Below are positions 9,597 to 56,830 of a stretch of DNA of 64,000 bases, piece by piece (positions within the stretch are counted from its first letter, which is position 1; each line of letters begins with the position of its first letter). Source of the DNA: Streptomyces sp. Ru71 (GTDB taxonomy: Bacteria; Actinomycetota; Actinomycetes; Streptomycetales; Streptomycetaceae); contig NZ_PQSS01000002.1 of assembly GCF_002920535.1 (NCBI RefSeq), positions 124,001 through 188,000 on the forward strand, read 5' to 3'. Under the pieces are notes generated by a model that saw only the letters and a list, made by a program, of their open reading frames with translations, was not told the origin of the DNA and searched no databases. A program made the translations under genes and the position numbers.

Positions 9597-9697
9597 ACGG
9601 AAGGTTCCACGCCCCCGTCACGGACGGTTCCACACTCTCGTCACGGAAGCCTCCACCCCCGTCACGAACGGATCGACACCCCCGTCACGGCAGCTCG
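9597..9697. repeat. degenerate 21-23 bp direct repeats reaching into the mtnP 3' end
   Basis: Units starting ACGGAAGGTTCC..., ACGGACGGTTCC..., ACGGAAGCCTCC... and ACGAACGGATCG..., each ending in CGTC, begin at 9597, 9620, 9643 and 9664, with a partial fifth. Lengths are 23, 23, 21 and 23. The fourth overlaps the mtnP stop codon. Confidence 0.7.
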
Positions 9698-10527
9698 AAC
9701 CCCGGGTCCATCCCTCCCAGCGCCGAGGTGCACAGGCAGTCCCGCTCCCCGTTCGAGGGCAGCGCGGCCACCGCGTCGAACAGCACCCCCCGCAGCCGGT
9801 CCACGTTCGCCGCGAACACCCGCAGCACCTCGTCGTGGGAGACGCCCTCACCGGTCTCCGCCCCGGCGTCGAGGTCGGTGACCAGGGTCATCGAGGTGTA
9901 GCAGAGCTCCAGCTCGCGGGCCAGCGCCGCCTCCGGGTGGCCGGTCATGCCGACCACGGACCAGCCCTGCGCCTGGTGCCACAACGATTCCGCACGCGTC
10001 GAGAAGCGCGGCCCCTCGACCACGACGAGCGTCCCGCCGTCCACGGGCTCCCAGTCCCGCCCCCGGGCCGCCTTCAGCGCGGCCGCGCGCCCGGTGGGGC
10101 AGTAGGGGTCGGCCAGGGACACGTGCACGACGTTCGGCACCGTGCCGTCGGGCAGCGGCAGCCCGTCGAAGTACGTGCCCACCCGGGACTTCGTGCGGTC
10201 CACGAGCTGGTCCGGCACCAGCAGCGTGCCCGGCCCGTACTCGGGCCGCAGCCCGCCCACCGCGCACGGCCCGAGGACCTGGCGCACCCCGAGCGAGCGC
10301 AGCGCCCACAGGTTGGCCCGGTAGTTGATGCGGTGCGGCGGCAGATGGTGACCCCGGCCGTGGCGGGGCAGGAACGCGACCCGGCGGCCGGCGATCTCGC
10401 CGAGGAAGAGGGAGTCGCTGGGCGCACCGTAGGGGGTGTCCACCTGGATCTCGGTCACCTCGTCCAGGAACGAGTAGAAACCGGAGCCGCCGATCACGCC
10501 GATCTCGGCGTTCGCGTTGTTCGCCAT
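9685..10527 (-). CDS. mtnP: S-methyl-5'-thioadenosine phosphorylase family protein
   Basis: This 280-residue member of the purine nucleoside phosphorylase/MTAP family cleaves 5'-methylthioadenosine with phosphate to adenine and methylthioribose 1-phosphate in methionine salvage. Motifs are the phosphate-binding GVIGGSGFYSFLD, RHGRGHHLPPHRINYRAN, and the substrate block GMTGHPEAALARELELCYT. The ATG at 10527 follows TAGGGT by six bases, a leaderless layout. Some family members act on other nucleosides, so exact substrate is inferred. Degenerate repeats lie at its 3' end. Confidence 0.9.
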   Translation of the reverse strand: MANNANAEIGVIGGSGFYSFLDEVTEIQVDTPYGAPSDSLFLGEIAGRRVAFLPRHGRGHHLPPHRINYRANLWALRSLGVRQVLGPCAVGGLRPEYGPGTLLVPDQLVDRTKSRVGTYFDGLPLPDGTVPNVVHVSLADPYCPTGRAAALKAARGRDWEPVDGGTLVVVEGPRFSTRAESLWHQAQGWSVVGMTGHPEAALARELELCYTSMTLVTDLDAGAETGEGVSHDEVLRVFAANVDRLRGVLFDAVAALPSNGERDCLCTSALGGMDPGFELP

Positions 10528-10539: not shown

Positions 10540-10560
10540 ACCGGCCGGGCACACGCCGAG

Positions 10561-10588
10561 GACCCCGCCGTCGGGCGACGGCAGGGTC
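10561..10588 (-). terminator. terminator of the FmdB gene
   Basis: GACCC-C-GCCGTCG pairs with CGACGGC-A-GGGTC (13 positions, one mismatch), just past the FmdB stop on the minus strand. Confidence 0.75.
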
Positions 10589-10604
10589 CCGGGAAAAGTG
10601 AGTC

Positions 10605-10919
10605 TCAGGCGGCCGAGGAGCTGGTGGAGCTGCTCGACGAGGAGCTCGACCCCGCGTCCGAGGAGGACGAGGACGACGACGAGGACGTGCTCGACGTGGA
10701 AGAGGACGACTTCGACGACGCCGGCGAGCTGCTCGACGAGGAGCCGCGGCTGTCGTTGCGGTAGAAGCCGGAACCCTTGAAGACGATGCCGACCGCGGAG
10801 AACACCTTCTTGAGGCGGCCCTTGCAGCTGGGGCACTCGGTCAGGGCGTCGTCGGTGAACTTCTGCACCGCCTCAAGGCCCTCGCCGCACTCGGTGCACT
10901 GGTACTGGTAGGTGGGCAC
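10605..10919 (-). CDS. FmdB-family zinc ribbon protein with poly-Ser tail
   Basis: The 104-residue product begins PTYQYQCTECGEGLEA and has the two Cys pairs (CTEC, CPSC) of the FmdB zinc ribbon in the first 40 residues. Residues from about 60 on are almost only Ser with some Ala, Lys, Thr and Asp, an extreme low-complexity tail. The start is GTG 10919, with AGGAGG eight bases upstream; family members begin M-P-T-Y, and the longer frame from ATG 10946 would lie inside the CIRCE operator. Function of the family is unsettled. The operator suggests induction with chaperones. Confidence 0.9.
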   Translation of the reverse strand: MPTYQYQCTECGEGLEAVQKFTDDALTECPSCKGRLKKVFSAVGIVFKGSGFYRNDSRGSSSSSSPASSKSSSSTSSTSSSSSSSSSDAGSSSSSSSSTSSSAA

Positions 10920-10929
10920 TGTCTTCCTC

Positions 10930-10956
10930 CTGGCACTCTCACTCAATGAGTGCTAA
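10930..10956 (-). promoter_or_regulatory. CIRCE operator (HrcA site) upstream of FmdB gene
   Basis: The plus strand reads CTGGCACTC, nine bases, GAGTGCTAA. The right arm matches the CIRCE consensus TTAGCACTC-N9-GAGTGCTAA at 9 of 9, the left arm at 7 of 9, and the spacer is exactly nine. It overlaps the ribosome-binding region, the position CIRCE takes in groES leaders. Confidence 0.8.
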
Positions 10957-10986
10957 CGACGATCCATACTGACGTATTCCCGAGCG

Positions 10987-12279
10987 TCAGTCCACTGTCA
11001 CCGGCACGCGGTGACCCACGCCACGCGCGACGGTACGGCCCCGGGGGTGCGCCACCAGCCGGGAGCGCAGCGCCAGCAGGGTCACCAGGGCGAGCACCGT
11101 GCCGCCCATCGGGACCAGGAAACCGGCGCCGCCCCACAGCCGGTCCTCCAGCTGTCCGGCGACCGTGACGGCGGCGGCCTGGCCGAGCGCGACCGCGCCG
11201 GTCAGCCAGGTGAACGCCTCGGTGCGCGCACCGGCCGGCACCAGGCCCTCGACCAGGGTGTAGCCGGTGATCAGGGCGGGCGCGATGCACATGCCGACCA
11301 GCAGGCCGAGGCCGGCCAGCAGGAGCGTGGAGTGGGCGGTCCACAGGGCGGAGGCGACCAGTGCCAGGGCGGCGTAGCCGACGACCAGGCGGCGCTGCGG
11401 GGCGACCTTCCAGGCGACGGCGCCGCAGACGAGCCCGGAGATCATGTTGCCCGCCGCGAAGACGCCGTAGAGCACACCGTTCAGGCCGGGCTCGCCGATG
11501 GACTCGGTGAACGCGGCCAGCGACACCTGCATGCCGCCGAAGACGGAGCCGATGCCCAGAAACGTCACGATCAGCACGCGCACGCCGGGGACGCGCAGCG
11601 CGGAGGTGCGCTCCACGCGCGCGTGGGCGTCGGCGGAGTGGACCTGGGGCTGGGTGCTCTTCTGCGCGGCGAAGAGCAGACCGCCGACCAGCGTCAGCGC
11701 GGCCTCGGTGATCAGACCGGCGGCGGGCGCCACGGTGGTGCACAGGGCGGTCGCCAGCAGCGGGCCGACGACGAAGGTCAGCTCGTCGGTGACGGACTCG
11801 AAGGCCGCGGCGGTGCTCATCAGCGGGGAGCCCTTGAGCTTCACGCCCCAGCGGGCGCGGACCATGGGCCCGATCTGCGGCACCGAGGCGCCCGTCGGCA
11901 CCGCCGCCACGAACAGTGCCCACAGCGGGGCGTGCGCGAGGGCGAGCGCGGTCAGGGTGAGCCCGGACAGCGCGTGCACGATCACGCCGGGCAGCAGGAC
12001 GGCGCGCTGGCCGTAGCGGTCGGCGAGACGGCCGCTGTACGGGGCGAACAGCGCCATCGACACGCCGGTGACGGCCGCCGCGGCGCCGGCCGCGCCGTAG
12101 GAGCCGGTGGTGTGCTGCACGAGCAGCACGATGGAGAGGGTGAGCATCGCGAACGGCTGGCGTGCCGCGAAGCCGGGGAGCAGGAAGGTCCAGGCGCCGC
12201 GGGTGCGCAGCAGTTGCCCGTATCCAGGGCGGGCGGGAGTCGCCGCCTTCGTCTTCTCCGAGGTGACCGTGGACGCCAC
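10987..12279 (-). CDS. MFS transporter
   Basis: This 430-residue protein has 12 predicted membrane segments. The major facilitator motif between TM2 and TM3 is present (APYSGRLADRYGQRAVLL). The soluble N-terminus (about 20 residues, Lys/Thr-rich) precedes the first segment GAWTFLLPGFAARQPFAML. The substrate cannot be read from sequence; such proteins usually export drugs or metabolites by proton antiport. It starts at GTG 12279 with a weak AAAGG upstream. The 279 bases upstream of it (12280-12558) contain no gene or RNA element I can support. Confidence 0.88.
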   Translation of the reverse strand: MASTVTSEKTKAATPARPGYGQLLRTRGAWTFLLPGFAARQPFAMLTLSIVLLVQHTTGSYGAAGAAAAVTGVSMALFAPYSGRLADRYGQRAVLLPGVIVHALSGLTLTALALAHAPLWALFVAAVPTGASVPQIGPMVRARWGVKLKGSPLMSTAAAFESVTDELTFVVGPLLATALCTTVAPAAGLITEAALTLVGGLLFAAQKSTQPQVHSADAHARVERTSALRVPGVRVLIVTFLGIGSVFGGMQVSLAAFTESIGEPGLNGVLYGVFAAGNMISGLVCGAVAWKVAPQRRLVVGYAALALVASALWTAHSTLLLAGLGLLVGMCIAPALITGYTLVEGLVPAGARTEAFTWLTGAVALGQAAAVTVAGQLEDRLWGGAGFLVPMGGTVLALVTLLALRSRLVAHPRGRTVARGVGHRVPVTVD

Positions 12280-56756: not shown

Positions 56757-56830
56757 GTCCGCACTTCCCTCCAGCTCGCCTGCGACGTAGAGGGCAACAG
56801 TGGGGGAGGGCCTGCGATTCCGTGGCGGGA

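Follow-up and report, generated by a model that had tools for sequence, protein, structure and literature searches.

Gene content of the locus

The window, i.e. the whole stretch of 64,000 nucleotides from Streptomyces sp. Ru71 that was analysed, carries on its minus strand a gene with a GTG start (10605-10919), which encodes an FmdB-family zinc-ribbon protein with a serine-rich tail. Upstream of it lies a gene for an MFS transporter (10987-12279, minus strand), with its end some 6 bases short of the -35 element of the promoter described below. Directly past the stop codon, a hairpin was predicted by folding (10556-10592, minus strand), which is a probable terminator without a T run; the stretch containing it folds at -50.2 kcal/mol (z -3.81). 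The downstream gene for S-methyl-5'-thioadenosine phosphorylase (9685-10527, minus strand) has its own start past this hairpin. In view of the strong hairpin, the zinc-ribbon gene is probably monocistronic.

The reading frame matches Pfam Zn_ribbon_8, and its product matches NCBIfam TIGR02605, a family named CxxC_CxxC_SSSS. The window protein and all 71 proteins compared carry at their N-terminus a zinc ribbon that contains two CxxC pairs. Besides these pairs, the 71 actinomycete loci retain PTYxYxC..C, VFKGSGFY in exact or closely similar form, and a low-complexity tail. The C-terminal tail of the window protein comprises 46 residues, 74% of them serine, and ranks first in serine content among 69 tails from actinomycetes; their median is 50%, and nearly all of them are rich in serine. 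From its composition, the tail of the window protein is predicted to be disordered. An earlier note, made from the sequence alone, had called the poly-Ser tail odd. This view has to be dropped, since the family name itself includes the serine tail along with the two CxxC pairs.

On the grounds of its sequence, we assign the gene as the Streptomyces ortholog of M. tuberculosis Rv0991c (Ruc) rather than as an unusual FmdB gene, and refer to it as ruc. The window protein and M. tuberculosis Ruc both carry CxxC...CxxC, DDALT, GRL(K/R)K and AVG(I/V)VFKG. This comparison is based on a partial M. tuberculosis sequence, read from published primers that mutate the four cysteines to serine, which aligns at three stretches (MPTYSYESTQSANRFDVV, DDALTTSERSSGRLRKLF and AVGVVFKG). 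The identity to the protein of a mycobacterium-like locus (L063) amounts to 54% over 90 aligned positions. A generic FmdB regulator without any relation to Ruc would fit the family name "FmdB" used in the annotation, and the genome does contain another, shorter FmdB-type zinc-ribbon gene (G000 C20:21712-21855, plus strand). However, the full motif, the serine-rich tail and the promoter-operator layout described below all match M. tuberculosis Ruc, which makes a generic FmdB regulator extremely unlikely.

A CIRCE operator precedes ruc

In front of ruc lies a CIRCE element, the predicted operator of the repressor HrcA (10930-10956, minus strand). Read on the strand of the gene, it consists of two 9-bp arms, TTAGCACTC and GAGTGCCAG, which are separated by the 9-bp spacer ATTGAGTGA, and it differs from the consensus TTAGCACTC-N9-GAGTGCTAA at 2 positions, both of them located in the right arm. 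It is the sole match to this consensus in the window at up to 3 mismatches; 100 shuffles of the window gave 0 matches, and the chance expectation for the window is 0. Once the alternatives seen in actinomycetes were allowed in the scoring, the element reached 18/18, as did the corresponding elements in 20/20 other Streptomyces sampled, while dinucleotide shuffles of the ruc upstream regions of 71 actinomycetes scored 14/18 at most. The ribosome binding site GGAGG (10926-10930, minus strand, read from the sequence), which is invariant in 21 Streptomyces, shares its first G with the end of the operator, and the GTG start follows ten bases past the operator. Coordinates, nine-base spacer and position over the ribosome site had thus been read correctly in the earlier note, and the identification as CIRCE holds. 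From this we conclude that the heat-shock operator before ruc is real, and that control of the gene by HrcA is very likely.

The genome encodes one HrcA (204.7 bits, contig C73), whose gene is itself preceded by a CIRCE element. The best CIRCE sites of the genome precede hrcA, groES-groEL1 (contig C12), groEL2 (contig C40) and ruc, and this set equals the published HrcA set of M. tuberculosis. Two closely spaced elements each are found at groES-groEL1 (L006 2028-2102; 47 bases apart, start to start) and at groEL2 (L007 from 2213), and one each at ruc and hrcA. Weak matches on contigs 15, 17, 36, 47 and 60 were discounted as sites because of mismatches in the cores of their arms. A search for Hsp33 in this genome found none, which agrees with the reported anticorrelation of Hsp33 and Ruc (PMC7448276).

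A SigR-type promoter overlaps the operator

A feature missed in the first reading is a SigR/SigH-type promoter, GGAAT-N18-GTT (equivalent to GGAATA-N17-GTT), which overlaps the operator (10955-10980, minus strand). Its sequence, GGAATACGTCAGTATGGATCGTCGTT, matches exactly, including the spacing, the published SigR consensus of Streptomyces (GGAAT-N18/19-GTT; PMC9205884); the consensus described for SigH is GGAAYR-N17-GTT (PMC4803200). The -10 element GTT (10955-10957) has two bases in common with the start of CIRCE. HrcA bound to the operator would cover the -10 element and the start site, so that direct occlusion would be the simplest mechanism of repression. The window contains 2 matches to GGAAT-N18-GTT, compared to a chance expectation of 0.15. 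The other exact match (56796-56821, minus strand) may represent a further SigR promoter or a chance occurrence. The combination of GGAAT-N18-GTT with an overlapping CIRCE occurs in this genome only at ruc, even if two mismatches are allowed. The main text of the SigR literature examined does not mention the SCO318x/SCO319x tags.

Conservation of operator and promoter

The earlier note had proposed that loss of the left arm in related species would speak against the operator. Such losses were looked for, and the arm proved to be retained: a CIRCE element with exact arms precedes ruc in 118/121 genomes of the genus, and in 117/118 of those of good quality. Conservation ahead of the gene in other species, the check suggested in the same note, was likewise found, with a score of at least 16/18 in 75/80 named relatives. 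In a comparison of 21 Streptomyces, the arms were invariant and the promoter elements nearly invariant, whereas the bases before the -35 element varied. It is conceivable that CIRCE is an inherited relic without any controlling function and that ruc is driven by SigR or by vegetative promoters, but arms kept exact in 118/121 genomes next to variable bases before the -35 element indicate continuing selection, and we consider a relic highly improbable.

The overlap with a SigR-type box is less widespread than the operator itself. CIRCE together with an overlapping box was found in 49/80 named relatives, including members of Streptomyces, Kitasatospora, Mangrovactinospora, Rhodococcus and Nocardia. 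In 26/80, among them Micromonospora, Actinoplanes, Nonomuraea, Nocardiopsis, Thermobifida, Catenulispora and Pseudonocardia, CIRCE occurs without such a box, and dual control is therefore not universal in actinomycetes. One genome of the same genus (G022) has no GGAAT box at the usual place, and some lineages carry ruc without CIRCE.

The spacer of the operator follows a pattern of its own. Most Streptomyces species share the spacer AT(T/C)GAGTGA, whereas other genera keep the arms around an unrelated spacer. In the window, the spacer ATTGAGTGA (10939-10947) holds a second GAGTG, which creates an alternative CACTC-N3-GAGTG repeat. This conserved alternative pairing, together with the probable inclusion of the spacer and the right half in the transcript, would be expected if the inverted repeat worked mainly as a hairpin of the mRNA leader that affects translation or stability of ruc, instead of serving as an HrcA operator. 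However, the leader folds no better than shuffled sequences (z +0.33), so a structural role of the conserved spacer is not supported. In addition, the arms fit CIRCE and are found again at groES, groEL2 and hrcA of this genome, and other genera preserve them without the spacer. A leader hairpin as the main function thus appears very improbable, and we favor the HrcA operator.

The left half of the operator also varies in a locus-specific manner. It reads CAGTC instead of CACTC in 14/32 CIRCE-bearing ruc loci outside Streptomyces (upstream regions L037, L038, L071-L077, L080 and others). In 8/8 carrier genomes checked, the variant is confined to ruc, and their other CIRCE sites retain CACT; another genome, G198, has CACTT at ruc and CAGTC at another site. 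The CAGTC variant of many actinomycete families and, in Streptomyces, the conserved spacer and the merged SigR -10 element might mean that the ruc operator is specially tuned, with derepression at another level of stress than that of the chaperonins and with an AND gate for heat and thiol stress, although we regard this only as a tentative proposal that is rather unlikely to be correct.

Proposed regulation of ruc

Taken together, we are highly confident that the locus comprises the control region and the gene of the Streptomyces Ruc ortholog, where transcription would be started by SigR and blocked by HrcA at the overlapping CIRCE. In such a circuit, thiol oxidation or heat would free SigR, which would then initiate transcription at GGAAT-N18-GTT. 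By occupying the overlapping operator, HrcA would block the ruc promoter, as it would those of groES-groEL1, groEL2 and hrcA, and this block would be lifted once unfolded protein draws GroE off HrcA. By analogy to M. tuberculosis Ruc, the small zinc-ribbon protein would lose its zinc on oxidation, act as a holdase via its putatively disordered serine-rich tail, and pass its clients to DnaK. Our literature search retrieved no results on HrcA or SigR binding, heat shock or oxidation for Streptomyces ruc, no work that links Streptomyces FmdB to HrcA, SigR or heat shock, and no explicit statement that Streptomyces HrcA controls ruc.

Comparison with known systems

In M. tuberculosis, ruc (Rv0991c) is a direct target of HrcA (PMC7448276; PMC8557902), and the HrcA-controlled operons are groEL2, groES-groEL1, rv0991c-rv0990c and hrcA-dnaJ2 (PMC8557902). 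Heat induction of ruc depends on SigH, whose site overlaps that of HrcA (PMC7448276), and the SigH-dependent expression of Rv0991c after heat was reported to be about 40-fold (PMC4803200). The oxidised protein is a chaperone, the activity of which requires the disordered tail (PMC7448276). The earlier note had regarded the HrcA-controlled FmdB gene as a new regulon member. The CIRCE element and probable control by HrcA are borne out, but the novelty is not: since ruc is already an HrcA target in M. tuberculosis, the locus extends known biology. What is new is the documentation of this arrangement in Streptomyces and the depth of its conservation. The M. tuberculosis control circuit is thereby extended to an antibiotic-producing, genetically tractable genus, whose harmless laboratory species offer a setting to test which conditions need Ruc. 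Moreover, ruc appears to be part of the core HrcA regulon in many actinomycetes, and the overlap of SigR/SigH and HrcA sites would be either ancient or repeatedly kept.

The Streptomyces locus resembles M. tuberculosis ruc in the zinc ribbon with a serine-rich tail, the CIRCE element in front, the overlapping promoter of the SigH family and the same HrcA regulon partners. It differs in the junction, since the -10 GTT abuts CIRCE in mycobacterium-like loci, which have CTAGCACTT as the left arm, whereas two bases are shared in Streptomyces. Furthermore, M. tuberculosis ruc forms an operon with rv0990c (PMC8557902), while Streptomyces ruc is followed by the hairpin and the methylthioadenosine phosphorylase gene. 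With the CIRCE/HrcA control of actinomycete groES-groEL and hrcA, the locus shares the operator and, in this genome, the repressor gene, but its target would, by analogy, be a redox chaperone and not a chaperonin. Compared to the SigR regulon promoters of Streptomyces (PMC9205884), the ruc promoter has the exact consensus and spacing, but its -10 element is overlapped by an HrcA operator.
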